From the IMG/VR virus record IMGVR_UViG_3300043772_005203, positions 1-36,410 of that record: a stretch of 36,410 bases of DNA, one strand, 5' to 3'. The first letter of the stretch is position 1. Each line of letters opens with the position of its first letter. The DNA comes from a virus. The translations under genes and the position numbers were made by a program. The notes beneath the pieces were generated by a model that was not told the DNA's origin, did not search any database, and worked only from the letters and a program-made list of their open reading frames with translations. This document shows, piece after piece, positions 4,202-32,439 of this stretch.

Positions 4202-4510
4202 TTAATCCTCCGGCTCGACGACGAGCACGATCATCGGAAACTGCGGGTGGTCGGTGACGCGGGTGATGCGGTAGGTCGCGTCCTGAAACTCCAGCGTTTC
4301 ACCGAGCCTCGGCCGCTCCGCGCCAAGCTCTGAGCGGAGCACTTTCATTGTGCAATCTCCCTTCGCCTCGAAGCCGCCGAGCCCCAAGTCTTGGCTCAGC
4401 GGGTTATCGGATACGAGCGCGTGAAGCGTTCTCCCTTTCCAGACAATCTCCTCGCCCGTGGCTGCGAGAACCTCGGCGAGCGCGGCGGCTTTTTCATTGT
4501 GCAGCGACAT
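4202..4510 (-). CDS. Head-tail joining protein (gpFII-like)
   Basis: A 102-residue protein whose C-terminal half (RPRLGETLEFQDATYRI, then a hydrophobic strand VLVVEP) looks like the small beta-barrel of lambda gpFII-type head-tail joiners, which plug the portal exit and receive the tail. It is the first structural gene beyond the capsid gene on the minus strand, but the two are separated by a plus-strand DUF3800 insertion. The start ATG 4510 is preceded by TTGAC at 4529-4525, exactly 14 nt away, with no Shine-Dalgarno. Its upstream region is shared with the divergent DUF3800 gene, only 37 nt apart. Confidence 0.65.
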   Translation of the reverse strand: MSLHNEKAAALAEVLAATGEEIVWKGRTLHALVSDNPLSQDLGLGGFEAKGDCTMKVLRSELGAERPRLGETLEFQDATYRITRVTDHPQFPMIVLVVEPED

Positions 4511-4547
4511 GTTGCCGCGCGCATGTCAAAGTGCCGACCATCCGATT

Positions 4548-14264: not shown

Positions 14265-15086
14265 GTGAAGATCCACTGCGCCCACAATGCCCTCGTCGAT
14301 CCGGCGACACTCAAGCCGAACCCGGTGAATCCGAACCGGCACAGCGCGCATCAGATTCAGCTTCTGGCATCCATCATTCAGGAACAGGGCTGGCGCGGGC
14401 CGATCACGGTGAGCAAACGTAGCGGACTGATTGTTCGCGGGCACGGACGCCTCGAGGCCGCGTTGCTGATGGGCGCGGAGAAGGTTCCCGTCGATTATCA
14501 GGACTACGCGAGCGAAGCGGAGGAACTCGCAGACCTGCTCGCTGACAATCGTCTCTCGGAACTCGCTGAGCTGGACGAGGACGACCTCAAGCGGGTGATC
14601 GAATCCATCCGCGAAAGCGACCCTTCGTTCGACGTGGAACTCACGGGCTTCATGGAAGACGAGATTGCGCGCCTCTACGATGAGAAGCCAGAGGACGACG
14701 TGGAGACGGTGCCGCGCATGGAGATCCAGGCATTCGAGCACCACGACTACTTGGTCTTCATGTTTCACGATCTTCGCGACTGGATGCTCGCGCTTCAGCT
14801 CCTCGGCGTCCGCGAAGTCGATTTCTCAATCACCCGCAAAACCAAAAAAATCGGCCTCGGCCGTGTGCTCCATGGAAAACGAATCCTCGACCTCGCCCGC
14901 CGCTGTGGCAGCGCCACTGGCGAAACCGCCGGCGGAAATCAACCGTCTCTCCCCGAAGGACTGGCCGGAACTGGCTCCGTTGAGCCTGCGCCTGGTGATC
15001 ATGTCGCGCAGCCGCCCGCGGTCGATCACCAGCCACCGCCTGTTCCCGACGGCGACGCTCGTCGTTCCCGAAAGCGAGCTGGTTGA
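14265..15086 (+). CDS. ParB/sulfiredoxin-type domain protein
   Basis: A 273-residue protein. The N-terminal ParB-like nuclease domain includes NPNRHSAHQIQLLASIIQEQ, GWRGPITVSKRSGLIVRGHG and RLEAALLMGAEKVPVDYQDY, covering motifs LKPNPxNPxxH and GHGR. It ends with a helical extension containing KKIGLGRVLHGKRI. Phage copies are often DNA-binding or nicking proteins next to DNA-modification genes. The start is GTG 14265, preceded by TTGAC (14246-14250), exactly 14 nt away. The last part (from about residue 205) is Pro/Gly-rich and overlaps the glycosyltransferase gene by 215 nt in another frame. The ParB frame may have lost an earlier stop or been frameshifted there. Confidence 0.85.
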   Translation: MKIHCAHNALVDPATLKPNPVNPNRHSAHQIQLLASIIQEQGWRGPITVSKRSGLIVRGHGRLEAALLMGAEKVPVDYQDYASEAEELADLLADNRLSELAELDEDDLKRVIESIRESDPSFDVELTGFMEDEIARLYDEKPEDDVETVPRMEIQAFEHHDYLVFMFHDLRDWMLALQLLGVREVDFSITRKTKKIGLGRVLHGKRILDLARRCGSATGETAGGNQPSLPEGLAGTGSVEPAPGDHVAQPPAVDHQPPPVPDGDARRSRKRAG

Positions 15087-15720
15087 TTACGCTTCCATCC
15101 CGCTGGAGAAGGTCACGATTCCCGATGAAGTGACCGGCGTGAGCGCCGTGCGCAACTGGATCGTCGCGCACTTCAAGGAGGACGCCCTCGTGATGCTCGA
15201 CGACGACATCACGGCCTGCGTCTGCATGGTGTCGCTGCGCTGCCGCAAGCTCTCGACCGATGAGACGCTGGCTATGCTGGAAAACTCCGCCTACGGCGCG
15301 CGCGGCGCCGGGGCACGGTTGTTCGGCTGGCACCAGCGCAGCGATCCGAGGCTGCTTCAACGCAATGATCCGTTCGGCGTTCACCATTGGGTCGGAGGCG
15401 CTGTGGGCGTCGTGCGCGATGCCAATGGTGGAGTGCCGAAATGGGATGAACTGCTCAAGTGCAAGTGCGACATCGACGCCACGCTGGAGGAATTGATGGT
15501 GAATCGCCTGGTCTGGAACGAGGCGCGCTTTTGCTTCGTGCAGGAGCGCGACAAGAACCTCGGCGGAAATTCGCTGTTCCGCTCCGCCGAGCGCATCGCG
15601 GCGGAGAAGCGCTACCTCAAGCGGAAGTGGAAAGCCCACATCCGGTTCGAGAGTTACCAGAGTCAGGACAAGACCGCGATTGATGTCCCGCGCCGCCAGT
15701 CCTTCAGCCTCGATGCTTAG
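14872..15720 (+). CDS. GT-A fold glycosyltransferase-like protein, possible DNA modification
   Basis: A 282-residue protein from ATG 14872. The N-terminal strand LRLVIMSRSRP and the later VMLDDDITACV (Asp110-112) are the nucleotide-binding strand and DxD-type metal motif of GT-A glycosyltransferases. FGVHHWVGGAVGVVRDANGG and VNRLVWNEARFCFVQERD fit the rest of the domain. GT-A proteins beside ParB-like and other modification genes in phages have been proposed to add sugars to hypermodified bases, but no base-hydroxylating enzyme or thymidylate synthase homologue is visible in this window. The gene overlaps the ParB-like frame by 215 nt, so the first ~25 residues are uncertain; a downstream start at MSRSRPRSI is possible. 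Confidence 0.75.
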   Translation: MENESSTSPAAVAAPLAKPPAEINRLSPKDWPELAPLSLRLVIMSRSRPRSITSHRLFPTATLVVPESELVDYASIPLEKVTIPDEVTGVSAVRNWIVAHFKEDALVMLDDDITACVCMVSLRCRKLSTDETLAMLENSAYGARGAGARLFGWHQRSDPRLLQRNDPFGVHHWVGGAVGVVRDANGGVPKWDELLKCKCDIDATLEELMVNRLVWNEARFCFVQERDKNLGGNSLFRSAERIAAEKRYLKRKWKAHIRFESYQSQDKTAIDVPRRQSFSLDA

Positions 15721-15874
15721 CGATGCAAATGGAGCCAATCAGCGTTGGACATCACGCGGCTCGGACGACGAGCAGGAAGGCATGTCCAATTCTCCATCGT
15801 CCGACCGCTCGCGGCACCCCTCAACACCCCCCTTTCTTTTTGGCCTCACGTTTTTGGCGAACGAAAATCAAGAC

Positions 15875-16423
15875 ATGCGATTTCTAACTAAACGAGGCTA
15901 TGAGTTTGGTGAGGTTTCCTCGGCGATGCAGAAGGCTATTCGTCGCGGAGACACTCGCCTTGCGGGATATTGGGCGCTGGAACTCTGGGCCAGCGGCTAC
16001 GGCAACTATGTGTGGAAGCGTCTCCTGACTGTCAGTGCGGAGGATTGCTGGGGGATTCTGACTCAGGAGGTAAAGGCTCTGCATGATGGCTACGCGCTTG
16101 TGAACGCCAACGTGCCCGCGAAGCAGGCGAAGGGCCGCATCTTCATCAGCAAGGCCGTGATCCTCCTGTGCGCGGCGAAGAAGAATCGCGACGCCGACCA
16201 TTTGCAGAACTTTGTTTATGACCAGTGCGCGGGTCTTGATGCGGACAAGCTCGCCGCCGATCTGGTGAAAGCGGGCCGCGAGAAGGTGCCGGACTACGCC
16301 TTCGACTGCCACACGCAGAAAGGACGGCGCATGGGGAAGACGAAGGCGGAATTCTTCCGCGATGAACAGGCGGCTCTGGAGCCGTTCCAGCCGGGTCTCT
16401 TCGACGATCTCATCGACGGCTAA
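15875..16423 (+). CDS. RarA/MgsA C-terminal-like protein (clamp-loader-type domain)
   Basis: A 182-residue protein starting MRFLTKRGYEFGEVSSAMQK. The early part RRGDTRLAGYWALELWASGY, followed by WKRLLTVSAEDCWGI, matches the C-terminal collar region of RarA/MgsA-type AAA+ proteins, which handle stalled replication forks. The ATPase domain itself is absent, so this is either a stand-alone domain or a partner of the separate AAA+ protein at 20966. The frame extends to 15680, but the upstream part is Ser-rich and not protein-like, so I use ATG 15875, which has the A-rich leader AACGAAAATCAAGAC. The interval 15721-15874 has no feature I can name. Confidence 0.65.
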   Translation: MRFLTKRGYEFGEVSSAMQKAIRRGDTRLAGYWALELWASGYGNYVWKRLLTVSAEDCWGILTQEVKALHDGYALVNANVPAKQAKGRIFISKAVILLCAAKKNRDADHLQNFVYDQCAGLDADKLAADLVKAGREKVPDYAFDCHTQKGRRMGKTKAEFFRDEQAALEPFQPGLFDDLIDG

Positions 16424-16469: not shown

Positions 16470-16560
16470 GCGGCTGCCGACTCCTTTGCGGCTGATTAAA
16501 TCGAAGGCCAATTTAGGGCGATAAACGAGCGGGCAGCGGGCGAGCATCTTTTCCGCAAAT

Positions 16561-16692
16561 GGTGCGGGCCGATAGCAGGCAAATGGCTCGCCTTCATCTT
16601 TCGCGCCAACCGAACGGCGCTCGAAAACATGGTGAAAAATATGGAGAGGCAAACGGATGGACTCCGCGAGGGGCGGCGGACGAGGCAAGGCC
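16561..16692 (+). promoter_or_regulatory. Conserved 132-nt leader, copy 1 (probable early gene control region)
   Basis: Shares GGTGCGG, GATAGCAGGC, a TTTCKCGCCAACCGAA block and a GAAAAATATGG-type AT-rich core with the leader at 18361-18492. Both are exactly 132 nt from GGTGCGG to the start codon. A third, partial copy is at 21754-21849. All end in a GAGG(C)AAGG ribosome-binding-like sequence. The A/T core could be a -10 region and the GCGCC/GGCGC arms could form an RNA hairpin. The role is inferred from repetition only. The rest of the gap (16470-16560) contains one 33-nt repeat (16498-16530) also found inside the gene at 24418. Confidence 0.65.
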
Positions 16693-17368: not shown

Positions 17369-17469
17369 GGACGCTCCGCCGGTTGATGCACGCCTTTTTC
17401 GCGGAGGCGCTCGCCGATCTCGGCGCGCTGCTCCGCAGCCTAGACCAGAAACCAAAAACCAAACGATGA
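17365..17469 (+). CDS. 34-residue small protein between DUF6011 and ligase genes
   Basis: MRTLRRLMHAFFAEALADLG, then ALLRSLDQKPKTKR. Both ends overlap neighbouring genes in ATGA fashion (start with DUF6011 stop, stop with ligase start), which is strong support for translation. It is an amphipathic helix with a basic N-terminus and no recognised family. Confidence 0.6.
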   Translation: MRTLRRLMHAFFAEALADLGALLRSLDQKPKTKR

Positions 17470-18347
17470 ACCACATCACCAAGCCGATGCTCGCCGGCAA
17501 GTGCGAGCGCCCCGATGCCCTCAGCTTCCCCGTGCTTGCCACGCCGAAGCTCGACGGCATCCGTTGCCTGAAGATCAACGGGCGCGCCCTGACGCGCTCG
17601 TTCAAACCTGTGTCCAACCGCTTCACTCGCGGGTGGATTGAAACGAACCTGCCCGACGGCCTCGACGGCGAGCTGATCGTCCGCGGCACCACGTTCAGCG
17701 AAACCGCCGGCCACATTGGGCGCGAGTCCGGTGAGCCGGACTTCACGTTCGCCGTGTTCGACTACGTGAGTGACGGCGTGGATGTGCCCTATGCTTGCCG
17801 GATGCAGGAACTCAAGCGCCTGCCGGAGTTCGCCCACGTCGAGAAAATCCTGCCCGTGGAGATCCGCGATGCCGCGCATCTCGCCGCGTATGAAGAGCAG
17901 TGCCTTGGCGAAGGCTACGAGGGTGTGATGATCCGCACGCCGGACTCGCCATACAAATGCGGGCGTTCAACCGAGCGCGAGGGCTGGCTGCTCAAGATCA
18001 AGCGGTTCGAGGACGCTGAGGCCGTGGTGCTCGACACCTACGAAGGGATGAGCAACCTGAATGAGGCGCAGCGGGATGCGTTCGGGCGGACCAAGCGCAG
18101 TTCGGCGCAGGCGGGCAAGGTGGGCCGTGGCGAACTCGGCGGATTCGTGGTCAGCGCCGTGGATTCCAACGTGGTGTTCCGGTTGGGCTACAACCATGTG
18201 CTCGGCGGGATCGACCGCGTCACACTCTGGGAGCAGCGCGCTTCGTTAGTCGGGCGCATGGTCAAGTTTAAGCACCAGCCGAGCGGCGCGAAGGAAGCGC
18301 CGCGCTTTCCGAAGTTTGTCGGATTCAGGGAGGCGTGGGACCTGTGA
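17466..18347 (+). CDS. ATP-dependent DNA ligase (T7-like)
   Basis: A 293-residue ligase. Motif I is TPKLDGIR, with the adenylated Lys at about residue 28 and Arg33. Motif III lies in the FTFAVFDYVSDG strand, motif IV in GYEGVMIR and motif V in WLLKIKRFEDAE. A C-terminal OB-fold domain follows (AGKVGRGELGGFVVSAVDSN to FPKFVGFREAWD). It would seal nicks during replication and recombination. The start has the A/C-rich leader CCAGAAACCAAAAACCAAAC. A second nucleotidyltransferase of ligase type lies at 24636 on the same strand. Confidence 0.92.
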   Translation: MNHITKPMLAGKCERPDALSFPVLATPKLDGIRCLKINGRALTRSFKPVSNRFTRGWIETNLPDGLDGELIVRGTTFSETAGHIGRESGEPDFTFAVFDYVSDGVDVPYACRMQELKRLPEFAHVEKILPVEIRDAAHLAAYEEQCLGEGYEGVMIRTPDSPYKCGRSTEREGWLLKIKRFEDAEAVVLDTYEGMSNLNEAQRDAFGRTKRSSAQAGKVGRGELGGFVVSAVDSNVVFRLGYNHVLGGIDRVTLWEQRASLVGRMVKFKHQPSGAKEAPRFPKFVGFREAWDL

Positions 18348-18360
18348 GCCACCCACCAAT

Positions 18361-18492
18361 GGTGCGGAGCGATAGCAGGCTTCCGGCTTACACCCACCTT
18401 TCTCGCCAACCGAAGGCTGCTCCGAAAAATGGTGCAAAATATGGCGATCACTTCGGCTTCCCGTTCGCGGGTCGTCTGAACGAGGCAAGGGC
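18361..18492 (+). promoter_or_regulatory. Conserved 132-nt leader, copy 2, upstream of amidoligase
   Basis: Same elements and same spacing as the leader at 16561-16692: GGTGCGGAGCGATAGCAGGC, the TTTCTCGCCAACCGAA block, CAAAATATGGCG, and GAGGCAAGGGC just before the ATG. The length is conserved to the base (132 nt from GGTGCGG to the start codon). This argues for a functional control region rather than random drift. It controls the gene for the amidoligase, the first gene of a modification pair. Confidence 0.65.
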
Positions 18493-19509
18493 ATGTCTGC
18501 AACATCCACCACAAGCCATGCGCGAAAGCTACGCACTCTGCGTAGTCTGCGGAAACCCGAGGACGTTGAAGCGATGAACATTCGCTTTGGCGTTGAACTT
18601 GAAACCAAAGTGCCGCGCACGTGCGGCCTCGCCGTCGGCGGCTACCACGCCGGTTATCCGGTGAGGACGGGCCGTGCGACCAACGGGCAGGAACTCGCCG
18701 CGCCCACCTTCAACGGTGCGACGTGGCGGGCCGACCGCGACGGTTCCATTACCTGCGAAGCGAACGAGATGCCCTGCGAATTCGTGTCGCCCATTCTCCA
18801 CGGGATTGAGGGCGTCGAGTCGCTCTGCCGGTTCATGGAATGGATGAATGCGATCGGCGCCACCGTCGATAATTCGTGCGGTGTCCATATCACCGTGGGC
18901 ATCGAGTCGGTGATTGGCAGCCGCGAGGCGGGCAAGGTGAGCGAGTTTGTCCGCAAGCTCGCGCACATTGCCCAGTGGCACGCGATGTCGCTCTACGGCC
19001 AGACGGGCACTGGACGCCACCTGAGCCGCTACAGCCACACGCTCGCCGCCGACGTGGAGCGCCACATGCGCAAGATCGTCAACACGAGCAGCGTCGCGGA
19101 CAAGGAAGCCGCCGCCGCGGCCTGCGGGCGCGGGATGCTCAACTTCCAAAAGTCCTTTCGGATGCGGGGCGATGAGTATGTGGGCGCGGTGGAGTTCCGC
19201 GTGTTCGCCGGAACCACGAGCCTCGTGAAAGTGCTGCATCACTTGGGCAGCGTGCTCGGGCTCTGCCGCCGGGCTGCGCAAGTGCAGTGCCTTGGCGCCT
19301 TCCGGAAGAACAAGCTGCAAGCCAAGCGCACGCAAACCGCCGAGAGCGCGGTGCAATTCCTGTGGGATTACCTCGGGTGGACCGGCGGCGCGCGGCCCTG
19401 CGCGTTGGGGCTGTTCGGCCGGCTGCACCGTGAGTTTCCCAGTTACGGCCACGAGGCGCTGCGCCTCTGCCGCAAGTTCGATGAGCGCTACCCGGAGGCC
19501 CGGCTGTGA
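18493..19509 (+). CDS. Putative amidoligase (glutamine synthetase-like fold, Amidoligase_2)
   Basis: A 338-residue protein. From NIRFGVELETK the pattern matches the Amidoligase_2 family, a GS-like COOH-NH2 ligase: FGxELE near the start, WRADRDGSI, a CEFVSPIL strand, and DNSCGVHITVGIE with conserved Cys-Gly-Val-His. A C-terminal GAVEFRVFAGTTSLVKVLHH region carries Glu and Arg residues expected at the active site. Phage copies are proposed to make amide bonds on peptides or metabolites and are often paired with a glutamine amidotransferase, as here. I use ATG 18493 because it follows the shared leader. The conserved domain begins at ATG 18574, so the first 27 residues, which include the 17-nt hairpin repeat, may be non-native. 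Confidence 0.82.
   Translation: MSATSTTSHARKLRTLRSLRKPEDVEAMNIRFGVELETKVPRTCGLAVGGYHAGYPVRTGRATNGQELAAPTFNGATWRADRDGSITCEANEMPCEFVSPILHGIEGVESLCRFMEWMNAIGATVDNSCGVHITVGIESVIGSREAGKVSEFVRKLAHIAQWHAMSLYGQTGTGRHLSRYSHTLAADVERHMRKIVNTSSVADKEAAAAACGRGMLNFQKSFRMRGDEYVGAVEFRVFAGTTSLVKVLHHLGSVLGLCRRAAQVQCLGAFRKNKLQAKRTQTAESAVQFLWDYLGWTGGARPCALGLFGRLHREFPSYGHEALRLCRKFDERYPEARL
18529..18545. repeat. 17-nt hairpin repeat copy A
   Basis: CTACGCACTCTGCGTAG, a 7-bp palindrome with a 3-nt loop, lies inside the 5' end of the amidoligase open frame. Related copies are at 20118-20134 and 23043-23059, with a degenerate one near 16937-16950. Confidence 0.7.
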
Positions 19510-19546
19510 GCGCGTCCCTTTCCTCAACCTCAATCCATTTCCAGCC

Positions 19547-20206
19547 ATGTGTGTCGTCCTAATCTGTCCGCCCAAGCAACGCCCTGACCTGACCATCCTG
19601 CGCGCGTGTCACGCCGCCAACCCGCACGGCGCGGGCGTGGCATGGCGCGACAAGCGCCGCATCCACTGGCGCAAGGCTCTCACGCCCGGTGAAGTGAACC
19701 ACCTGATTCAGCAGGTGCCCGGCGAAGTGATCATCCATTTCCGTTGGGCCAGCGTCGGCGGAGTGGAGCCGCTGCTCTGCCATCCGTTCCCCGTCACAGC
19801 GGAGGCGGCGCTCGGCTACGAAGGGCTCTGCAAGTCCGTGCTCTTCCACAACGGGACGTGGGGCAACTGGGAGGCTGCGCAGGAAATCATCGGCGACCTC
19901 GACGGGCCGATGAGCGACAGCCGCGCCGTGGCCGCGCTCGTGCATCACAAGGGCAGCAAGCCGCTCAAGAAGCTGCCGGGCCGGTGGGCAATCATGCACG
20001 CCAAGGAGATTGAGTTGTTCGGAGACTGGCAGCCGTGGCGCGGCTTCCTTGTCAGCAACACGAGCTTTCTGCCCTACCTCACCGCGAGCGCCGGGCGCGC
20101 ATCATTTTCGACGCGAACTCCGCACTCTGCGGAGCCGCGTCGCAAACCGAGTCCAACGGGAAACATGGGTCAGCTCCCGCTGGCGCTCGGCAATCACCAA
20201 AGCTGA
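19547..20206 (+). CDS. Class II glutamine amidotransferase domain protein
   Basis: A 219-residue protein with nucleophile Cys2 (MCVVLICPP). NPHGAGVAWRDKR and the HFRWASVGG strand-turn follow, then LCHPFPV and SVLFHNGTWGNW. These are the glutaminase motifs of class II amidotransferases, with Cys2 needed at the N-terminus after Met removal. It releases ammonia from glutamine and probably feeds the adjacent amidoligase. The C-terminus from about residue 183 onward (ASFSTRTPHSAEPRR) looks unrelated to the domain and overlaps the hairpin repeat at 20118, so it is probably an extension created by that repeat. Confidence 0.8.
   Translation: MCVVLICPPKQRPDLTILRACHAANPHGAGVAWRDKRRIHWRKALTPGEVNHLIQQVPGEVIIHFRWASVGGVEPLLCHPFPVTAEAALGYEGLCKSVLFHNGTWGNWEAAQEIIGDLDGPMSDSRAVAALVHHKGSKPLKKLPGRWAIMHAKEIELFGDWQPWRGFLVSNTSFLPYLTASAGRASFSTRTPHSAEPRRKPSPTGNMGQLPLALGNHQS
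20118..20134. repeat. 17-nt hairpin repeat copy B
   Basis: CTCCGCACTCTGCGGAG, perfect 7-bp palindrome with a 3-nt loop, lies within the C-terminal extension of the amidotransferase gene. Confidence 0.7.
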
Positions 20207-20225: not shown

Positions 20226-20819
20226 ATGAAGTTGTTCAAATTGATCGCCAGCAAGGCTGGCAAAGTCGTCTTCGATGATCGCATCGAGGCCGAGAATCCG
20301 CGCACGGCGCGCGAGCAGATGAAGTCGCTGCTCGGGCTCCAGTCGCTCACCGGCGTGGTCTATTCGATCACGGAAATCCCCGTCGAACTCATCCGCGAGA
20401 TCGTGACCGCCAAAGTCCTCGAGATCGTGGGCAGCCGCCGCGGCGGCGGCTCGACCATCGACGTGAGTCGCATCGTCAACGACGCCGCGAATGTCGCCGT
20501 CAGCGATAAGTTCCGTCCGATCGAGCAGCGCCTCGCCGCGCTCGAAGGCCGGCAGGGCGCGGTCTCAACGAACGGGGCTCACTCCACATCCAGCCGTCGC
20601 TTCGATGCCTTCCAACGCGATTCCACGCGCTCCCGTGAAACCGATACATCGGCCACCAACGGGCGCAGTGCGGAGCCGGAAGCGCCGTTGCCAGCGACGA
20701 CGGACTGGCGGGCTGTGAAGCGCTTCTACAAGCACTGCCGCAGCCCGAAGCAGACGGCGGCGCACTTCGACCTGTCGATCAACACCGTGAAGGCGCGCGT
20801 GCGCCGGGAGGGCTGGTAG
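20226..20819 (+). CDS. Protein with C-terminal helix-turn-helix
   Basis: A 197-residue protein. The N-terminal half is structured (MKLFKLIASKAGKVVFDDRI, then strands and a helix of IREIVTAKVLEIVG). The middle is a Ser/Thr-rich linker, and the last ~35 residues contain an HTH-like SPKQTAAHFDLSINTVKARV. The overall build suggests a DNA-binding regulator with a long disordered linker. It starts 20 nt after the amidotransferase gene and has the A/C-rich leader ACACAGAAACCAA. Family not recognised. Confidence 0.6.
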   Translation: MKLFKLIASKAGKVVFDDRIEAENPRTAREQMKSLLGLQSLTGVVYSITEIPVELIREIVTAKVLEIVGSRRGGGSTIDVSRIVNDAANVAVSDKFRPIEQRLAALEGRQGAVSTNGAHSTSSRRFDAFQRDSTRSRETDTSATNGRSAEPEAPLPATTDWRAVKRFYKHCRSPKQTAAHFDLSINTVKARVRREGW

Positions 20820-20982: not shown

Positions 20983-21655
20983 CTCACGAAACGGCCACAA
21001 GCCGCTGCGGCTGAAGCCCGAGCCGAAACCGTCGCCGATGAACTGGCGGCCGCAGACGGCGGAAGACCTGATTGGTCAGGCCCGCTCGGTGTGCGCCGCC
21101 CAGGTCGCGAAGGCGCGGCGTGTGCGCGATACGCGCAATGCGGCGTGCAAGCTCCTGCTCTACGGCCCGCCGGGCGTGGGCAAGACGACCGTGGCCGAGC
21201 TGGTCGCTGGCGAACTGACCGGCACGGCGCTCGGCATCGAGAGCTTCAACGGCAAGGAAGTGACGGTTGATGCCGTGCGCGACTGGATGAGCACGCTGCC
21301 CTACGGGTCGCTGTTCTCCAACTGGTCGGTGAAAATCATCAACGAGCTAGACCGCTGCTCGAAGGACGCGCAGGACATCCTGCTCACGTATCTCGACAAG
21401 CTGCCGCCCGGGAAGGCGCTGATCGGAACGAGCAACCTGCAACTCGATCTGCTCACGGAGCGGTTCCAGACCCGGTTCCAGTCGATCAAACTGACGGCGC
21501 CGGGCACCGAGGAAATCGCCGAGTTTCTGCGGGCGCACTGGAAAGTGCCGCGTGATGTGGCTCTGCGGATTGCCGTCGGGAGCGGCGGCTGTGTGCGCGC
21601 GGCGATGGCCGATCTGGAGACCTGGCTCGATGTGGAAGGAGGCGGATTGCTGTGA
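20966..21655 (+). CDS. AAA+ ATPase, clamp-loader-like
   Basis: A 229-residue AAA+ protein. Walker A is GPPGVGKT at about residues 67-74, a degenerate Walker B is IINELDR at about 124-130 (Glu-Leu-Asp rather than Asp-Glu), sensor 1 is IGTSN at 153-157, and RFQTRF may supply an arginine finger. The pattern resembles clamp loader or RuvB-type ATPases. The weakened Walker B suggests a regulatory or non-canonical subunit. The good ribosome site AAAGGAGG lies 6 nt before ATG 20966. Its stop overlaps the next gene's GTG start. Confidence 0.8.
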   Translation: MRLRLNSRNGHKPLRLKPEPKPSPMNWRPQTAEDLIGQARSVCAAQVAKARRVRDTRNAACKLLLYGPPGVGKTTVAELVAGELTGTALGIESFNGKEVTVDAVRDWMSTLPYGSLFSNWSVKIINELDRCSKDAQDILLTYLDKLPPGKALIGTSNLQLDLLTERFQTRFQSIKLTAPGTEEIAEFLRAHWKVPRDVALRIAVGSGGCVRAAMADLETWLDVEGGGLL

Positions 21656-22122
21656 GTGAGATCCGCTGCCGCTACTGCGGAAGGCCCAGCGAGGACCGTT
21701 CGGGCGTTTGCTCCCGCTGCGAACGCACCTACGAAAAACACCCGCGACTCAACTTTCGCGCCAAGCGCCAGGGCGCTGCGCAAATGGAGAAAAATATGGA
21801 GACGCTCAGCGATGGACTTCCGCGAGCGGCGCGAACGAGGAGGAAGGCCATGAACGCAAACCAATCCACCGACCACGCGCGCGGGGCTGCGGCCCAGCGC
21901 GATGCCACCGTCCAAAAACTCGAAGCGGCGCTGCTCGCCCAGCACGAGCAAGCCCGCGCCAAGCTGATGCTGGCGCTCAACTGCGGCGTCAATGACGCCC
22001 AGCACGCGACGGCCTTCGCGCAGGCCGCTGCCGCCTGCTTCGAGCGCGCCGCCGCCCTCGCGGAAGCGCGCATCATCGCCCTGACGACGACCACTGAAAC
22101 CCAGAAACACTCAACTCACTAA
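21652..22122 (+). CDS. Zinc-finger N-terminus followed by helical protein; two alternative starts
   Basis: The open frame begins at GTG 21652 (GTGA overlap with the AAA+ stop) with a CRYCGRPSEDRSGVCSRCER zinc-ribbon of two CxxC pairs. From ATG 21850 it continues as a helical, Ala-rich protein starting MNANQSTDHARG, 90 residues, likely a coiled coil. The leader element seen before the genes at 16693 and 18493 occurs in this frame immediately upstream of ATG 21850, so the second half is probably translated on its own. Either the zinc ribbon is a separate short gene whose stop was lost, or the protein is one 156-residue polypeptide. I report the whole frame. Confidence 0.6.
   Translation: MSEIRCRYCGRPSEDRSGVCSRCERTYEKHPRLNFRAKRQGAAQMEKNMETLSDGLPRAARTRRKAMNANQSTDHARGAAAQRDATVQKLEAALLAQHEQARAKLMLALNCGVNDAQHATAFAQAAAACFERAAALAEARIIALTTTTETQKHSTH
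21754..21849 (+). promoter_or_regulatory. Conserved leader, copy 3, inside a longer open frame
   Basis: Partial copy of the leader family: TTTCGCGCCAAGCGCC, GAAAAATATGGAGA and GAGGAAGGCC before ATG 21850, 96 nt from the TTTC block to the start codon, against 94 in copies 1 and 2. Here the region stays open and in frame with a zinc-ribbon ORF, so it is also coding if the upstream GTG start is used. Confidence 0.6.
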
Positions 22123-22126
22123 TCCT

Positions 22127-23059
22127 ATGCCTGAACACGAACACGAAATCCCACCGGATGCCGCCACGGCGGCAGACCATCGCAATCCGCGCCGTCGCAA
22201 CAACGGCGCAAACAACGGCGACGCGCCCGACCTCGGCGTGCTCGTCACCCCGCAGCCGCACCACGCGCTCGACGACCTCGTGCTCCACGCGGACGTGCGT
22301 GACGACATCGCCGCGGGCCTGCGCGCCATCCAGCGTCGCGGCGACCTCGAAGCCATCTGGAACATCAGCAAGCTCCAGCCGCAGGACGGCCGGTGCATCC
22401 TCAATTTCCACGGGCCGCCGGGGACGGGCAAGACGCGCGCCGCTCTGGGCGTGGCGCTGCGGCTCGGCCAGCCACTCTACCAAGTGGACTACAGCGCGGT
22501 GATCTCGAAATACCTCGGCGACACGGCCAAGCACATCGCGGCGTGCTTCAAGCGCGCGAGCGAACTCGGAGCGGTGCTCTTCTTCGACGAAGCGGACTCG
22601 CTGCTCTCGCGCCGTGTGAACATCGGGGAAAGCTGCGCGACCAGCATCAATCAGAACCGCAACGTGCTGATGCAGGAACTCGACCGGTTCAACGGCGTGG
22701 TGATCGTGACGACGAACCTGTTCGGCAATTACGACCCGGCGCTGCTGCGGCGCATCTCGCGGCACATCAAGTTCCGGCTCCCCGACAAGGCGATGCGGCG
22801 TCGGCTCTTCGAGCTGCACCTGCCAAACCGCGAGCGCGTGTTCGCCGACCTGAACATCCTCGCCACGGAATCGAAGGGCCTGTCCGGCGGGGACATCCTG
22901 AACGTCTGCCTGAACGCGATCTACGCCGGCTCCACCGCAGACGACGCGGGCGAGTGGAAGGTCACCGGAACGGACCTGCTCGCCGAAGTCACCAAGGTGA
23001 AGTCCGCCCACACCGACCACCGCGCCACTTTTTGCCGTGAGGCTACGCAGTCCGCGTAG
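22127..23059 (+). CDS. AAA+ ATPase, classical unfoldase/remodeller type
   Basis: A 310-residue AAA+ protein. Walker A GPPGTGKT is at about residues 96-103, Walker B LFFDEAD near 151-157, sensor 1 VTTNLFGNYD, and paired arginines (LLRRISRH) serve as an arginine finger; SGGDILNVCL forms the sensor 2 helix. The first ~45 residues are low complexity and probably disordered. It resembles FtsH/Cdc48-type AAA modules found in phages, where it may act in replication or particle assembly. The stop codon is formed by the 17-nt hairpin repeat at 23043. The start has the leader GAAACCCAGAAACACTCAAC. Confidence 0.85.
   Translation: MPEHEHEIPPDAATAADHRNPRRRNNGANNGDAPDLGVLVTPQPHHALDDLVLHADVRDDIAAGLRAIQRRGDLEAIWNISKLQPQDGRCILNFHGPPGTGKTRAALGVALRLGQPLYQVDYSAVISKYLGDTAKHIAACFKRASELGAVLFFDEADSLLSRRVNIGESCATSINQNRNVLMQELDRFNGVVIVTTNLFGNYDPALLRRISRHIKFRLPDKAMRRRLFELHLPNRERVFADLNILATESKGLSGGDILNVCLNAIYAGSTADDAGEWKVTGTDLLAEVTKVKSAHTDHRATFCREATQSA
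23043..23059. repeat. 17-nt hairpin repeat copy C at end of AAA+ gene
   Basis: CTACGCAGTCCGCGTAG, with six paired positions and one mismatch, provides the TAG stop of the AAA+ gene at 23057-23059. Confidence 0.65.
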
Positions 23060-24428: not shown

Positions 24429-24639
24429 CGCTCCCATCGTCCTGACGATCTTCGGCAACGAGCGATGCGTGGTCATGCTCGACGATCTCGAAGCCGCCGC
24501 GAAGGCCATCCATCAGAAGGCCGTTCGTGAACGGGAAACGAGCGCCCAACCCTCCCCATTCGGCGCGGAAATCGAAGGGCAAATTCGCGTGATAAATGCG
24601 CAATCCGGCCCTTCCGAAACGGAGGCTCCAGGGCCATGA
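24418..24639 (+). CDS. Small protein of unknown function before ligase 2
   Basis: A 73-residue protein (MKTDAPIVLTIFGNERCVVM, then a helix with DDLEAAAKAIHQKAVRERET). It overlaps the DUF6573 gene by 11 nt and the next start by 4 nt (ATGA). A 33-nt block within it (24569-24601) resembles 16498-16530 in the leader region of another gene. No function can be assigned. Confidence 0.55.
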   Translation: MKTDAPIVLTIFGNERCVVMLDDLEAAAKAIHQKAVRERETSAQPSPFGAEIEGQIRVINAQSGPSETEAPGP

Positions 24640-25259
24640 ACGTGCCTCCGCTGATCACGTATCCTGCGCGGCCGATTCAGGGCGGTCGGCTGGAGTTGGC
24701 TCCGCCCAAGCGCGGGCTGTGGTATGCCGAGCCAAAGTTCAACGGCTGGCGAGCGCTCATTCACACGCCGAGCGGGACGATGTGGAATCGGCACGGGGCG
24801 CTGCTCACCATCGCGGATTGCTTCCGGCCCGCGCTCGGTGCGTTAGCCAAGCTCGCAGCCCACGGACTTGTGTGGGCGGATTGCGAGGCGCTGGAGCGCC
24901 GCCATAATCTCGGGCGCGGCACGCTGATCGTGCTCGATGTGGTGCCGGAATCCGGGGCGCCGTGTTACGAGCAGCGGCGGGCGATGCTGGAGGCGATCAT
25001 CCCGATTGATGCGGTGTTCACTGGTGACACGTCGCGTCCGGTGCCGTCCGGGTCTGTGGCGCTGACGCCGACGATTCGTGCTGATTCCCACGCCGATGCG
25101 CTGGCGTTCTACCAGCGGCTGCGTGAAGCGAACCGCGCATTGCGCTGCGATTTCTTCGAGGGCGTGGTGATGAAGCGGGCTGACCCGTCGTATCCGGTGC
25201 AGTTGCGCTCAGCGACGGAGGAATTTCGCGGCTTTGTGAAGCATCGCTTCCTCACCTAA
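24636..25259 (+). CDS. Second ATP-dependent ligase-type nucleotidyltransferase
   Basis: A 207-residue protein. Motif I AEPKFNGWRA has the catalytic Lys at about 34 and Arg39. Motif III is WADCEAL near residues 80-86, motif IV FFEGVVMKR near 173-181, and motif V FVKHRF near the end. It lacks the OB-fold domain of the first ligase, so it is a minimal adenylyltransferase. It may be a DNA or RNA ligase with a partner domain elsewhere, or a repair enzyme. The 3' end is duplicated in degenerate form at 29017-29094. It shares the ATGA overlap with the small upstream gene. Confidence 0.75.
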   Translation: MNVPPLITYPARPIQGGRLELAPPKRGLWYAEPKFNGWRALIHTPSGTMWNRHGALLTIADCFRPALGALAKLAAHGLVWADCEALERRHNLGRGTLIVLDVVPESGAPCYEQRRAMLEAIIPIDAVFTGDTSRPVPSGSVALTPTIRADSHADALAFYQRLREANRALRCDFFEGVVMKRADPSYPVQLRSATEEFRGFVKHRFLT

Positions 25260-25664: not shown

Positions 25665-27989
25665 TTAGAGCACGGTGCCGGGCAGGGTTTTGACGCTCCA
25701 GCCGGTGCCGCCGCCGACCCAGACGCAGCGCACCGCAGCGCCATCGGTGGTGACGGTCTTGTTGCCGGCGGTGCCGTTGATGTTCTGGTTGGAGCAATCC
25801 AACGTCAGGGTGTTCGTGCCCCATCCGCTCGAGCCCGGCGTGCCGGCGTCCTCGATCAGAATCTCGTCGCCCGGTTTCAGGTTTTGGTAGTCGGGGCTCG
25901 GCAGGGTCAGGGTCTGGGGCGAGTTGAACGCGCAGGAGTAGCGCCCGTTCGGGTAGAGTGTGAACGAGCTGTCGATGCCCGTTCGCCATTGGCCTTCGTC
26001 CGCGTAGCCTACCGTCCAGCCGGTGTAGTCATCCACGTAAACGCAGCGGATTTGTCCGCCGGGGCGATCCGCGTAAAACGGCACCGCGGCACCGTTGATC
26101 ATGTCTCCGCCGCCGTAGCCGTTCGGCATCTGGATGTAGAACGGGTAGGTGCCCCAGGTCTGCCCTGGGTCTGCGAGCAGGATTTCGTCGCCGGGTTTGC
26201 GCTGCCACCAAGAGCCGTAGGGCAGGTTGACGTATTGGCCGCCGCTGGCCGGCGCGTAGAGATACTTGCAGCCGGAGAACACGCGCTGGGCGCTGTCACT
26301 GACTTTTACCCAGCGCTCGGTGGACCCGACGCCGACGAACCAACCCCATGTCCCGATTGAGGAATCGTAGCCATATACGCAGCGAATGGTCGCGCCGCCG
26401 GCGCTGGAGTAAAAATTCCCATACCACTGGCCGTTGAGGTAAGTGCTGTTGCCGTAAATATAGACCCCGTAGCTGCCCCAGTGATTACCCGCGTCCCGGA
26501 TGAGAATCTCGTCGCCCTCGCTGGCGCTGCTGGGGAGATAAACGTAGGCCGTGGAAGAATAGATGAGGTTCAGGCGATCTCCGGGCGACGGATAGAGCGA
26601 GCCGCCGGCAGCGATTTGCCACGCGGCGCGGGAAACGCTGGAGTCGGTGATGCTCCAGCCGATGCTGCCGCCGAGATAAACGCAGCGCACCAGCGACCAG
26701 CGCGTGGATGTGGTGAACCCGCTCCAGTTGCCGTTGATGGGCGCGCTGGCGGAGATGACCAGCGGGTAGACGGACCAGTTGCGTCCGCCATCGGCGATCC
26801 AGATTTCGTCCCCGACGCCCGGGCTGGACGGGAGATATGCGTAGAGAGTGTCCCACGGAGACGTGTAGGTGAAAACGAACCGCTGCCCGGCCTGCGGGTA
26901 GAAGGAGGTTGTGCCAGACGAATCCTCCGTCCAAACCGGTTCGTCGGTGCTGCCCACCAAGGCGACTTTCCAGCCGAGTTGCCCGATAGAACTGTCGTAT
27001 TCATAGACGCAGCGGATCGTCGCCCCGCTCGTGTTGGTGTAGAAGCTGCCCCACCAGGAACCGTTGAGGTAGGTGCTGTTGCCGTAGAGCCAGATCCCGT
27101 AGCTGCCCCAGTTGCTCCCCCGGTCGCGGATGAGAATCTCGTCGCCTTCGCTGCCGCCGCTCGGGAGATAGATGTAATACGTGAACGGGGCGGTCATGCT
27201 CCAGCGGTCGCCGGCCACGGGATACAGGCTGGAATTTCCGTCCCAAGTGATCTCCGTGAATTTGCCGGGGTCATCGACGATTACTGTCCAGTAGTCGTTC
27301 CCGCGGTAGAGCGCGCGGACGCGCGAGAACGGCGCGGCGCAGACCAGGCTGCCATACCAGTTGCCGTTGAGATACTGACCGCTGGCGTAGAGCGTGAAGG
27401 AGTAGTGGCCCCACTGGCCTTCGATGTCCTCCAGCTCGATGACGTCGCCCGCGGTGGCATCGGTGGGCAGATAGGCGTAGGCGCTGTTGTAGCCGTCCTG
27501 CCGAACGCCATACTTCACGCCGGTGACGAGCGTCGTGCCGTTTAGCGCCTGGTGATTGGTGAGCAGGACGGAGGACGTGCCGAGCCGGCCGGACGCGGGC
27601 AGTTGCAGAAGCGTGTCGCCCGAGGTTTCCAGAGTGACCGCATCGGAGCCGCTGCCAATCGACACGTTGCCGGTAAGCAGCGCGCGGCCCGCAGCGGTGG
27701 CGTCGCTGATCTGCGCGGCGGTGACGGTGGCCAGCGCGACGTAGCCCGCCGCTCCGTTGAGAAGCGTTTGGTCAATGACCTCGTAGAGTGTCGCCGTGTC
27801 TGCCTGATACACGTAGTCGCCGTTCTGCACCTGCGCCTGCGTCAGAGCGTAGCGGGCCGCTTGGTCAGCCACGGTGAGCTTGGTGATGTTCGCCGCGACC
27901 GAGGCGGCAACAGCCGCTTGCACGGCGGCAGTGACCGCAGCGTCAATGGTGCCGGTGGCGAGATCGAGAACGAGGAAGCGTTTGGGCAT
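25665..27989 (-). CDS. Tail fibre / receptor-binding protein with six repeats
   Basis: A 774-residue protein. The N-terminal ~150 residues contain helical attachment sequence (AVTAAVQAAVAASVAANITK, then LQLPASGRLGTSSVLLT). From about residue 160 it has six repeats of roughly 100-110 residues, each with the pattern YPxxGDR, YLPSxxSEGDEILIxDxGxx, WGSYG, YLNGxWxGxF and ATIRCVYxYDSSIG, ending GWxV. Such repeats make long beta-rich fibres that bind the host surface. It is on the minus strand, in the same direction as the structural genes but far from them, between the ligase gene and a ligase remnant. Confidence 0.85.
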   Translation of the reverse strand: MPKRFLVLDLATGTIDAAVTAAVQAAVAASVAANITKLTVADQAARYALTQAQVQNGDYVYQADTATLYEVIDQTLLNGAAGYVALATVTAAQISDATAAGRALLTGNVSIGSGSDAVTLETSGDTLLQLPASGRLGTSSVLLTNHQALNGTTLVTGVKYGVRQDGYNSAYAYLPTDATAGDVIELEDIEGQWGHYSFTLYASGQYLNGNWYGSLVCAAPFSRVRALYRGNDYWTVIVDDPGKFTEITWDGNSSLYPVAGDRWSMTAPFTYYIYLPSGGSEGDEILIRDRGSNWGSYGIWLYGNSTYLNGSWWGSFYTNTSGATIRCVYEYDSSIGQLGWKVALVGSTDEPVWTEDSSGTTSFYPQAGQRFVFTYTSPWDTLYAYLPSSPGVGDEIWIADGGRNWSVYPLVISASAPINGNWSGFTTSTRWSLVRCVYLGGSIGWSITDSSVSRAAWQIAAGGSLYPSPGDRLNLIYSSTAYVYLPSSASEGDEILIRDAGNHWGSYGVYIYGNSTYLNGQWYGNFYSSAGGATIRCVYGYDSSIGTWGWFVGVGSTERWVKVSDSAQRVFSGCKYLYAPASGGQYVNLPYGSWWQRKPGDEILLADPGQTWGTYPFYIQMPNGYGGGDMINGAAVPFYADRPGGQIRCVYVDDYTGWTVGYADEGQWRTGIDSSFTLYPNGRYSCAFNSPQTLTLPSPDYQNLKPGDEILIEDAGTPGSSGWGTNTLTLDCSNQNINGTAGNKTVTTDGAAVRCVWVGGGTGWSVKTLPGTVL

Positions 27990-29151: not shown

Positions 29152-29700
29152 TTACTCAACGCCCAATTGTGACTGCCACCAGGCATACGCAGGATGCCGA
29201 GCCCCCGGAAAATAGTTTGCCCAGGTTTGGATGCGTTTGAGCACACCACCCATGCGTTTTGCTTCTATATTACGGATTCGCTGCCAGCTTCGCAGAATGT
29301 CGGGTGTGCTCAGAACGGTGAGTTCCTGATACCGCTGCTTTGCTCGCTTCACGGCGCGCTCATCATCAATCGCCAAAGGCAGCGAACGACTTTCCGCCAA
29401 AGCGAAACACATAGCTTCGCCGTCACCCTTGCGCCCCATCAAAGCGGTAAAGTCTGCGAGCAATTCATACTCATCGTCTCCGCTGATTTCCAAAACCGTC
29501 AGCAAGCGGCGCTCGATGAACGGTGCCAACTCCGCAGGACAGCATTCCTGGGTATCGCGGTTTCGCAGCAAGAGCGTCTCGCTCAGCACCGCGCGGCACA
29601 CGCTGAAGCCCCAGCCGGCGTCGCCAAAGATTTCTTCCGCGCAACCCGTCGCGAGGATGTTCAAAAGAACTGACGTATCGGTGATAAGAGCCTGATCCAT
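29152..29700 (-). CDS. PIN-domain nuclease, probable toxin
   Basis: A 182-residue protein. The N-terminal ITDTSVLLNILA (acidic Asp8) and the later GDGEAMCFALAESRSLPLAI followed by DDERAVKRA give the acidic residues of a PIN ribonuclease. Ser-rich central and C-terminal helices follow. PIN toxins of toxin-antitoxin systems cleave tRNA or rRNA and are kept in check by an antitoxin. The HTH plus ImmA/IrrE-type protein lies immediately upstream on the same strand, 16 nt away, and could be the regulator. Whether the PIN is a toxin in this cassette is inferred from genetic context. Confidence 0.78.
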   Translation of the reverse strand: MDQALITDTSVLLNILATGCAEEIFGDAGWGFSVCRAVLSETLLLRNRDTQECCPAELAPFIERRLLTVLEISGDDEYELLADFTALMGRKGDGEAMCFALAESRSLPLAIDDERAVKRAKQRYQELTVLSTPDILRSWQRIRNIEAKRMGGVLKRIQTWANYFPGARHPAYAWWQSQLGVE

Positions 29701-29716
29701 GAACTAACACCCGCCA

Positions 29717-30943
29717 TCATGCGGGAACTAGAATCCTTTCCGGCTGCACGTCCAACGGCTCGAAGCCATCGTCGCTCTGCTGGTCGGCCATCGACCTTAG
29801 CCGTTCGAGTTCATGCCTTGCGGCGACGCGATCCATCCGCAGGTAATCGGCAAGCTGACCCTCGGTTAGAGCCTCTCTGACATCGTAAGCCCACATCGTG
29901 AGCATGCGGTATCGGAAAGGAAGAGTGGGCTCTGGGTTTTCCGCCGCCAGCAGACCGAGGGCGACCCGTGCCTTGTCCGGCTGGAACTTCTGCGCTCGCA
30001 GGTTGTCCCACGTTCCTGATGGCAACCGTTTGAGTTCCTCAAGGCGGCGGAACATGGCCTCAGCCGATACACGGAATTGGTGCGCTAGCGTCATTACATC
30101 CGCGACAGTCACGCCTTTGCCGTGGGCTCGGACGGATTCCGTGAGCAACCGATTCACACCCGCGCGTGGCATCAGAAAATTCTTCGCGAACGAGTCCGCG
30201 AACCGCTCGGCGCTCGATTTGCCCCAAGGCTCGTCGTCCCAGAGGCTGACATCTGCGAGGAATCGGGTCGTGAGGAAATGGCCGTACTCGTGCGCCAGCG
30301 ACCACACTGCGCGGGGAGCTGGATGTCGGCGATTGATTCCGATGCAACCGCCCAAATCTTCGCTGTAGGCGTAAAGGCCACCCATCGTCGCGGGGAGATC
30401 GTAGTAGAAAATTCTGAGGCCCAATGATTCCTCCATCAACGACCGCAGATCGAGAATCGGGCCATCCCCAAGCCCCAGCCTGGTGCGCTCCGTTGCAGCG
30501 ACTTCTTCGCCACAAGATTCAGGTGACACGCCTGGCGCTTCGTGTTGATAAACGGCCGGATAGCGTCGGACGAGGGGCATCTCGTTGATCTGCTCGAGGG
30601 CGAGGTAGTCGCGAGCGAGTGATTCGAGATTACTCACTGCGCTTTGCACGTCCGCTTCGGTCAAACGCATCTGGCTTGAGGGCAGCCGAAACTGTGGCAC
30701 CAGCGGCACTGGCGCTGGTTCCTCGTCGAGCCACTCCGACATCGGGCGTCCGTAAAGAGCCGACATTTCGGCAAGTTCATGTGCCGTGACACGGCGCGAG
30801 CCTTGCTCAATGGCGACGAGTGTAGTGCGGACGATGCCGAGTTTTTTGGCAACGTCCTCCTGGCGGAGCCCACGAGCGGTTCGCGCTTGCTTTAGCTTTT
30901 GGCCGAGAACTTTTGGGTCAAGTTGATCGAGGATGTGAGGCAT
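29717..30943 (-). CDS. HTH plus ImmA/IrrE-type zinc metallopeptidase
   Basis: A 408-residue protein. An XRE-type helix-turn-helix covers residues about 12-65 (LRQEDVAKKLGIVRTTLVAI). A linker precedes the zinc peptidase domain, with active motif HEYGH at about residues 218-222 in a WSLAHEYGHFLTTRF helix, and a further acidic motif ERFADSFAKNFLMP near 241-254. The C-terminal ~140 residues are helical. ImmA/IrrE-type proteins cleave repressors to turn on stress or phage genes and often accompany toxins. A short hairpin (CCCGC...GCGGG) covers the stop codon before the PIN gene. The start at 30943 is 11 nt from the QueC-like stop. Confidence 0.85.
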   Translation of the reverse strand: MPHILDQLDPKVLGQKLKQARTARGLRQEDVAKKLGIVRTTLVAIEQGSRRVTAHELAEMSALYGRPMSEWLDEEPAPVPLVPQFRLPSSQMRLTEADVQSAVSNLESLARDYLALEQINEMPLVRRYPAVYQHEAPGVSPESCGEEVAATERTRLGLGDGPILDLRSLMEESLGLRIFYYDLPATMGGLYAYSEDLGGCIGINRRHPAPRAVWSLAHEYGHFLTTRFLADVSLWDDEPWGKSSAERFADSFAKNFLMPRAGVNRLLTESVRAHGKGVTVADVMTLAHQFRVSAEAMFRRLEELKRLPSGTWDNLRAQKFQPDKARVALGLLAAENPEPTLPFRYRMLTMWAYDVREALTEGQLADYLRMDRVAARHELERLRSMADQQSDDGFEPLDVQPERILVPA

Positions 30944-30954
30944 GAGGACGATAG

Positions 30955-32439
30955 TTACGCGGCTAGGCGGAAATAGGAGCGGCGGAGGCGAGGAATACTG
31001 ACCGCGAAATCGTCCCACTCGTCAGCGAACTGTCGGTGGAGTTGTAGGAAACGAGCGGCTAACTGATTCTCGTTCATGTCAAGCGCGGTGGCGGCTTCGC
31101 CTTGAAATTCGGCAAATTCAGGAAACTCGGTGAGGAACGCATCCCAAGGTGCTGACCCATTGCGGAGGCACCCCAATCGAGCGACGAGACGTTCTAGTTT
31201 AGAGAGACCCATGTTCTTTCTGATCGCCGGATGCATCCCTCGCGAAAGCACATCCCATGAGTAATCGGATCCGTGATCAGGCACGAAGGCACGGTGCAAT
31301 GCCGCGCGGCGCACCAGACATGAAGGACAGATGCCACACTGATGCTGGCGCGAGTGGTAGTTCGGAAAAAATTCGCACGAAAAACTAGCTCCAACGATAC
31401 CCGAATGTCGGCGCACTGCTTCAGTCTCCACCACTTCAGCCTTCGTCTGGAGAGCGAAAGGATGCCGCACCACCAAAGCGGTGCCCAGAATTTCCGAGGC
31501 GACTCGACTGATACGGCCGAGAAAAACAGGATGCATGGCCCGGCTGCTCTGACTCCCAATCTGCGAGGTTTCACACGCCAGATTGAAGGCACCAATGCCG
31601 TTTTCAAACACATGTAACCTGTCCAAACCCGCAATTTGTGCCGCAAGTAGGCCAAGACTAACATGGATCCAACCGCGGCAGCGCTGGCTGGATTCCAAGC
31701 CGTTCGGCTCAACCTTGAACGGCAAACCGTAGTCCACAGGAAGCCACGCGACTCGTCGCGGAAACGCGAGCCGCAACCCGTCGAGGAGTCGCACCTGACC
31801 ATCTCTCAGCCGAGTGTTGGTATTTCCAGAGACGAGCAATCCTGCGACTTGATTCTCCGAAAACCACTGTAACACACCCGCGACCGAGTCGAGGCCCCCG
31901 CTGAACAAAGCGGCCCATGAAACCCGATGGCTGAGCATCGGTTCAAAGTGGTGCTGGGCTTCCTCAGCGGTGAAAAAGGTTCGCGGCTCGAAGCGGAGCG
32001 ACCAGTCATCTTCGGTCAAGAACTCCAAGGCGTTGACCAGGCGCTGCGAGACGGCAACCCATCGCTCCGGCTCAGCCACAGGCACTACCACTTTGATACT
32101 GCGTCGCCAAAACATCGGGCCGTTCGGGCCAGCCGGGCGCCGGGGCGCAAAACGATCTGCCGAATAGAGCGCCAGCGCCACGCGCAGCCAGTCAGCTTCA
32201 ATGGAACGCAGCGGGCGTTGAGCTAGCGCGGTGAACCCGGACGCATCCAGGTTCATCTGTTGGTGGTCAAACTCGGGAATGGGCCAGTTGCCTTCCACTT
32301 TTCGGGAAAATGACGTGCCTGCGGAAAAGTCGAACACATACTCCGGACGCGTCTCGATAAACTGATGCCGCCGGCATCGCCGCGGTTCGGCACCCCACTT
32401 TCCGTCAGGTCTAAGCGGTAAGGAATACTGGGCGTTCAT
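30955..32439 (-). CDS. QueC/QatC-like ATP-pyrophosphatase family enzyme
   Basis: A 494-residue protein. The PP-loop SGGLDS is at about residues 180-185 in a WAALFSGGLDSVAGVLQWFS strand, and a CGICPSCLVRR zinc site lies near 368-378 with Cys355 upstream, as in QueC, which makes 7-cyano-7-deazaguanine. The ~170-residue N-terminal domain before the PP-loop is not part of QueC and resembles the one in QatC of the Qat antiviral systems (ADWLRVALALYSADR, then the W...ALEFLTEDDW region). No deazapurine pathway partner is present here, so a modification or defence role is more likely than queuosine synthesis. The ATG at 32439 overlaps the upstream gene by 4 nt. Confidence 0.82.
   Translation of the reverse strand: MNAQYSLPLRPDGKWGAEPRRCRRHQFIETRPEYVFDFSAGTSFSRKVEGNWPIPEFDHQQMNLDASGFTALAQRPLRSIEADWLRVALALYSADRFAPRRPAGPNGPMFWRRSIKVVVPVAEPERWVAVSQRLVNALEFLTEDDWSLRFEPRTFFTAEEAQHHFEPMLSHRVSWAALFSGGLDSVAGVLQWFSENQVAGLLVSGNTNTRLRDGQVRLLDGLRLAFPRRVAWLPVDYGLPFKVEPNGLESSQRCRGWIHVSLGLLAAQIAGLDRLHVFENGIGAFNLACETSQIGSQSSRAMHPVFLGRISRVASEILGTALVVRHPFALQTKAEVVETEAVRRHSGIVGASFSCEFFPNYHSRQHQCGICPSCLVRRAALHRAFVPDHGSDYSWDVLSRGMHPAIRKNMGLSKLERLVARLGCLRNGSAPWDAFLTEFPEFAEFQGEAATALDMNENQLAARFLQLHRQFADEWDDFAVSIPRLRRSYFRLAA

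Follow-up and report, generated by a model that had tools for sequence, protein, structure and literature searches.

What the paired genes for a glutamine synthetase (GS)-fold amidoligase and a class II glutamine amidotransferase (GATase) do in this phage, and what the conserved leader sequence immediately 5' of them is, are the questions raised by this locus. The window, meaning the whole stretch of DNA analysed, is the 36.4-kb IMG/VR phage contig IMGVR_UViG_3300043772_005203. Genes for terminase, portal, head protease, major head protein, endolysin, tail and DNA polymerase are present in it, and its phage context is real.

Amidoligase/GATase pairs are known from LUZ24-like and phiEco32-like podoviruses (PMC3890496, PMC5498523), from OM43 phages (PMC10580990) and from the planctomycete phage ZRK32, which carries a GATase, an amidoligase, a glutathione synthase and a gamma-glutamyl cyclotransferase (GGCT) (PMC10945688). 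Together with an Arthrobacter phage, these bear out the statement in the preliminary description of this DNA that such pairs had already been described in mobile elements. The common proposal is that of Iyer et al. 2009, cell-wall or peptide modification, as relayed in PMC3890496, PMC5498523, PMC10580990 and PMC10945688. Guesses at the substrate of the phage pairs go back to 2009; an experimental answer was not found in the literature surveyed.

The amidoligase and GATase genes

The amidoligase gene occupies 18493-19509 on the + strand and encodes 338 aa from the ATG at 18493; there is an alternative ATG at 18574. ATG 18493 is the likeliest start, since the homologues begin MKPxDxKA, which aligns with the in-frame RKPEDVEA of the window; with this start, the 132-nt leader abuts the start codon exactly. 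The GATase gene, 19547-20206 (+), starts at ATG 19547 with its catalytic cysteine at position 2, and is separated from the amidoligase by a spacer of exactly 37 nt (19510-19546).

Against PF12224 (Amidoligase_2) the 18493-19509 product scores 41.7 bits, above the gathering cut-off of 22, and it has a PHROG amidoligase match besides that in Pfam. In an alignment of 26 amidoligases, 51-93% identical to the protein of the window, E35-x-E37, G130-x-H132 and E234-x-R236 are invariant in all 26; by motif, they presumably correspond to the residues with which glutamine synthetase binds metal and substrate. The AlphaFold2 model, built on the family alignment, has a pLDDT of 91 and matches YbdK 1r8g (VIA-align Z 12.8, 245 residues aligned, rmsd 4.5) and glutamine synthetases (Z about 12), with gamma-glutamylcysteine ligases and Dop among the further fold matches. 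By sequence and model, this is a GS-fold PF12224 protein, predicted to be an ATP-dependent amide ligase.

The GATase scores 25.4 bits against PF13522 (GATase_6), just below the cut-off of 27, and is therefore assigned to the class II superfamily rather than to the GATase_6 model. C2, R66, N102, G103 and D124 are invariant in 24 of 24 aligned GATases, and are taken, by motif, to be C1, R73, N98-G99 and D123 of GlmS. Its AlphaFold2 model (pLDDT 83, likewise built on the family alignment) belongs to the GlmS/PurF/EgtC fold class. The protein has the predicted fold and the catalytic residues expected of a class II GATase, although it could instead remove gamma-glutamyl groups: the model aligns with the GlmS glutaminase 1xff (Z 13.7, 167 residues, rmsd 3.9) and with EgtC (Z 13.6, 156 residues, rmsd 2.9), so that ammonia donation and gamma-glutamyl hydrolysis are not separable by the fold comparison.

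Both genes have pairwise dN/dS values of 0.07-0.18 and are under purifying selection. An Amidoligase_2-type gene with GS-fold motifs, followed 37 nt downstream by a Cys2 glutaminase, had been claimed in the preliminary description, and both identifications hold. Structure prediction and inspection of the active sites, which had been suggested there for both proteins, gave the expected folds with the catalytic residues kept, and no loss of Cys2 or of the GS-fold catalytic residues was found among the 24 GATases and 26 amidoligases aligned.

Coupling and distribution of the pair

Searches with the amidoligase found 53 viral contigs, to which a few more were added via the GATase, and 46 loci in bacterial genomes, all but one labelled Verrucomicrobiota. 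From metagenome bins and one isolate, Verrucomicrobiota are presumed to be the hosts. Where the alignment extends to the end of the amidoligase and is followed by no less than 150 nt of further sequence, the GATase is the next gene on the same strand in 89 of 90 loci, with a gap of 12-107 nt (median 37); some of these loci are near-duplicates, and the effective number is therefore smaller than 90. The sole exception is a planctomycete protein about 29-30% identical. Truncated amidoligases, in decayed prophages and at contig ends, likewise lack the GATase. The two genes are thus intact and strictly coupled in Verrucomicrobiota phages and prophages. No plasmid relatives were found, nor was any close relative of this phage group in the catalogue searched.

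A prophage of Chthoniobacter flavus Ellin428 (IMG/VR 642791618; 100% identity over 12.9 kb) is a relative. Its amidoligase (L008:5920-6936 / L074) is broken up by a garbled stretch and an in-frame stop, unlike the uninterrupted copies present in other phages.

The same pair is present at less than 35% identity in unrelated phages, namely Arthrobacter phage Waltz, phage C75C1 and a Christensenellales phage, the latter two with small ORFs between amidoligase and GATase. In Waltz (genes 94-96) the amidoligase is followed directly by the GATase on the same strand, as here, but a gamma-glutamylamine cyclotransferase (GGCT) precedes the pair, the amidoligase aligns over part of its length at about 31% identity, and the host is actinobacterial. 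The LUZ24-like and phiEco32-like cassettes similarly have a PF12224 amidoligase near a class II GATase in the early region of the phage. They add an ATP-grasp protein and, in several, GGCT and a COOH-NH2 ligase, and their GATases are larger (Iyer 2009; PMC3890496; PMC5498523), whereas the family of the window has two genes only and belongs to phages of Verrucomicrobiota. The pair described here adds to the known phage pairs their simplest, two-gene form, without the usual GGCT and RimK-type partners.

The surrounding module and partner enzymes

The pair lies in a conserved gene order of ParB-N protein, TAGT-type glycosyltransferase, MgsA-C-like protein, DNA ligase, amidoligase, GATase, possible HTH protein, 53-aa protein and AAA protein. 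The first of these, a ParB-N-domain protein at 14265-15086 (+) matching PHROG ParB families, is present in 54 of 57 related contigs. The TAGT-type glycosyltransferase, 14872-15720 (+) with an uncertain exact start, reaches 27.7 bits against PF20691 (cut-off 27.5); of 15 phage records, 13 have a match above this cut-off, and the DDD motif is kept across 57 matches. The two ORFs overlap in different frames by up to about 200 nt (14872-15086, +), and the ParB C-terminus is putative. The gene at 15833-16423 (+), whose product is weakly similar to the MgsA C-terminus (phrog_16866, 3e-66), is found in 56 of the 57 contigs, and the ATP-dependent DNA ligase gene that precedes the leader, 17466-18347 (+; PF01068 32.9 bits, phrog_114 9.7e-53), in 37. 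A second, shorter DNA-ligase-like protein is encoded at 24636-25259 (+) in the same phage (phrog_114, 3e-7). Downstream of the GATase, 20226-20819 (+) is conserved in 40 contigs and has a possible C-terminal HTH, with no significant family match.

Partner enzymes were sought in 15 phage records of this family, some of them possibly incomplete. Thymidylate synthase/hydroxymethylase (PF00303) was found in none of the 15 and N4/N6 methyltransferases were likewise absent, the positive controls having worked for both. A C5-methylase (PF00145) appears in one record, only as a 28-position fragment with a stop codon, and TET_JBP (PF12851) in none of the 15, in a search that had no positive control. 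No enzyme producing a modifiable DNA base was thus found in the phage records of the family. GGCT is also missing from all 15 (control positive in 9 genomes), as is RimK-type ATP-grasp, the sole ATP-grasp family covered, with a positive control; no COOH-NH2 ligase partner was seen in the phage records, in a search whose positive control gave no signal.

The repeated leader element

The leader was first described as a 132-nt sequence shared with one other gene. The sharing stands, but "another gene" is too few, as there are three copies in the window and the element is a repeat across the family. Copy 1 (16558-16689, +; nhmmer E 8.5e-26) runs up to ATG 16690, where a small gene of an 80-aa family containing YVGTFIKA begins. 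Copy 2 (18361-18492, +; E 1.6e-25) is the untranslated 132 nt directly before the amidoligase ATG, and copy 3 (21726-21828, +; E 1.8e-15) ends at ATG 21829. A zinc-ribbon-like ORF starting at 21652 (21652-21828, +) runs in frame through copy 3 into the next gene, and the element may therefore be partly translated there.

A profile built from the leader copies has 128 matches in 67 contigs, all on the + strand, and none in reversed sequence. Strong copies (E < 1e-5) number 100, are spread over 58 contigs and all lie on the gene strand. For 97% of strong copies, an ORF that begins with ATG and is 60 or more codons long is present in a 110-nt interval around the end of the element, compared with 49% of random positions. 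At least 8 recurring gene families are preceded by strong copies: the leader is 5' of the amidoligase in 50 of 58 contigs and of the gene for the small YVGTFIKA protein in 23 contigs, and other genes bearing it include those for DNA ligase, the MgsA-C-like protein and the AAA ATPase. The element is about 140 nt long, with conserved blocks (C/T)GCCAAC, AAATGGTGAAAAATATGGyG, GATGGA and, ahead of the ATG, a purine-rich stretch that contains GAGG. In the sub-group L049, L050 and L095, a GGATGTCGGAACGCGGGCACTC-type sequence follows the leader upstream of the amidoligase and recurs between genes in several contigs.

Several identities for the leader were rejected. In comparison with known RNAs only tRNA reached threshold, and the lone sub-threshold match overlaps no leader; RNAalifold gave five weak pairs with zero compensatory changes, and no inverted repeat of at least 8 nt is present in copies 1 and 2. 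It does not appear to be a sigma-70 promoter, the one promoter-like site in 12 kb being outside the leaders and at chance rate, nor a conserved peptide, every frame being broken by single-base indels between copies. As for a host repeat, the only exact occurrence of the core pattern in the Chthoniobacter flavus genome is within the prophage. Contigs of about 30% G+C have exact 18-mer matches, which do not include the full element and appear to be due to chance.

By analogy, the leader would work like a start-associated control element, one peculiar to this virus family. The nearest comparison is with the SAS/ESAS of Cluster K mycobacteriophages (PMC3203893), which are likewise repeated, mostly in one orientation, just before the starts of several gene families, and rare or absent in the host. 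The 13-bp SAS consensus GGGATAGGAGCCC has no match here with up to 2 mismatches allowed, the 17-bp imperfect inverted repeat of ESAS has no counterpart in copies 1 and 2, and the leader, at about 140 nt, has other conserved blocks. The likeness is one of placement and not of sequence and, since the SAS consensus is missing, the leader is on sequence grounds not a member of the SAS family.

Other genes in the contig

Several further genes of the contig resemble defence genes. The QatC-like (QueC-related) anti-phage gene at 30955-32445 (-) has 172 bits in PADLOC and 178 bits in NCBIfam, below the latter's cut-off of 280; with its partner gene at 32436-33101 (-), it is perhaps atypical Qat-type defence cargo. 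An HTH and zinc-peptidase-type protein, RmrA-like (PADLOC 79 bits), is encoded at 29717-31018 (-) and adjoins the ORF 29152-29700. The AAA ATPase encoded at 22127-23059 (+) is similar to IetA, from the Iet defence system (PADLOC 114 bits), and its gene is preceded by the leader element in some relatives. Elsewhere, a DUF3800 protein at 4458-5642 (+) is a likely insertion amid minus-strand structural genes, and a 265-nt internal repeat of 71% identity (26333-27227, -) lies within the tail-fibre-like gene 25665-27989.

Possible functions of the pair

A function for the pair is suggested by homology and context. It may quite possibly, if not yet probably, be a two-protein amide-forming system directed at a host envelope or peptidoglycan-precursor carboxylate, or at another peptide carboxylate, with the leader controlling several genes together. 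The pair would be expressed with the early and replication genes of the phage; the GS-fold enzyme would use ATP to activate a carboxylate and join it to an amine, and the class II GATase would supply ammonia from glutamine to the ligase in trans. The likeliest target would be altered during infection, in parallel with the proposal for phiEco32/LUZ24-type phages, and the leader, as a repeated cis element, would subject several other genes to the control that governs the amidoligase operon. The operon, the physical coupling of the proteins, ammonia transfer, the target and the co-regulation are all presumed. That unrelated phages carry the same pair counts toward two-protein amidation, and envelope or peptide amidation is the leading idea. 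Against an envelope target, no envelope gene adjoins the pair, the neighbours being DNA-related, and the GGCT and RimK-type ATP-grasp partners that are part of the basis of the published peptidoglycan argument are missing here. MurT/GatD, which amidates peptidoglycan (PMC3267633), is also a two-protein glutamine-dependent system, but the likeness is by analogy only, as its Mur-ligase and class I GATase folds are unrelated to the proteins of the window.

The strongest rival, given that EgtC and GlmS fit the GATase equally well, is a protect-and-release cycle in which the GS-fold enzyme attaches a gamma-glutamyl group to a peptide or amine and the Ntn enzyme takes it off again later, with no ammonia transfer. 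EgtA/EgtC in ergothioneine synthesis, a GS-superfamily ligase and an Ntn class II GAT-fold enzyme in one pathway, is the precedent for adding and then removing a gamma-glutamyl group; EgtC, which acts as a gamma-glutamyl hydrolase, is among the top fold matches of the GATase. No genes for ergothioneine were noticed in the window. The matches of the ligase fold to gamma-glutamylcysteine ligases and YbdK, and the cyclotransferase adjoining the pair in Waltz, also point this way, but the glutamine-binding residues of true GATases are all kept too and GGCT is in none of the 15 phage records; such a cycle is rather unlikely, if a serious candidate. It nevertheless bears on the preliminary proposal of a modification pathway using glutamine nitrogen: an intact and coupled ligase and GATase are established, and the transfer of glutamine nitrogen is a putative step, EgtC being as good a fit.

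Modification of the phage DNA, or of a sugar on it, with the TAGT glycosyltransferase decorating a base and the ligase/GATase amidating it, is improbable. The TAGT gene is in the same module and on the same strand in nearly all contigs, a T6-type TAGT has been assigned the second glucose on hydroxymethylcytosine (PMC13390438), and CmoY provides a precedent for amide ligation to a DNA base (PMC12783734). CmoY is also a phage ATP-dependent amide ligase with a glutaminase domain in some relatives, but it is of the asparagine-synthetase type and acts with CmoA/CmoX, and this family has no substantial C5-methylase relative. The DNA-modifying enzymes sought in the 15 records were absent save for the C5-methylase fragment, including TET_JBP, searched for without a positive control, and among the phages listed no other pairs a TAGT with this amidoligase. 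The earlier suggestion of a DNA-related role thus retains the glycosyltransferase as its one hint, but is opposed by the lack of a hydroxymethylase, of N4/N6 methyltransferases and of any C5-methylase beyond that fragment. It is very doubtful that the ParB-N protein, TAGT, amidoligase and GATase form one undescribed pathway, in which a sugar or uronic acid would be placed on DNA or another polymer and then amidated, under the start-associated element. There is just as slight a chance that the pair channels nitrogen into the host's amino-acid or glutathione-like metabolism, a role suggested for phage ZRK32, where the gene set is accompanied by better growth on nitrate/ammonium coinciding with addition of the phage (PMC10945688); those growth effects are not tied to genes, and the glutathione-synthase-like and GGCT partners were not seen here, in an ATP-grasp search of the RimK family only. 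Very unlikely as well is an anti-phage or counter-defence pair with a protein of the host or of a phage as its target, for although QatC-like, RmrA-like and IetA-like genes are in the same contig, neither protein matches any PADLOC model, and the pair is part of the core module, unlike variable defence cargo.

Implications

The leader offers a lead of its own, being a start-associated repeat that can be compared with the SAS of mycobacteriophages. The amidoligase and GATase are retained together in essentially every member of this phage family, which has relatives in the cultured host C. flavus Ellin428, and this minimal two-gene version would lend itself to clean tests, in vitro and by mass spectrometry, of what such pairs do.
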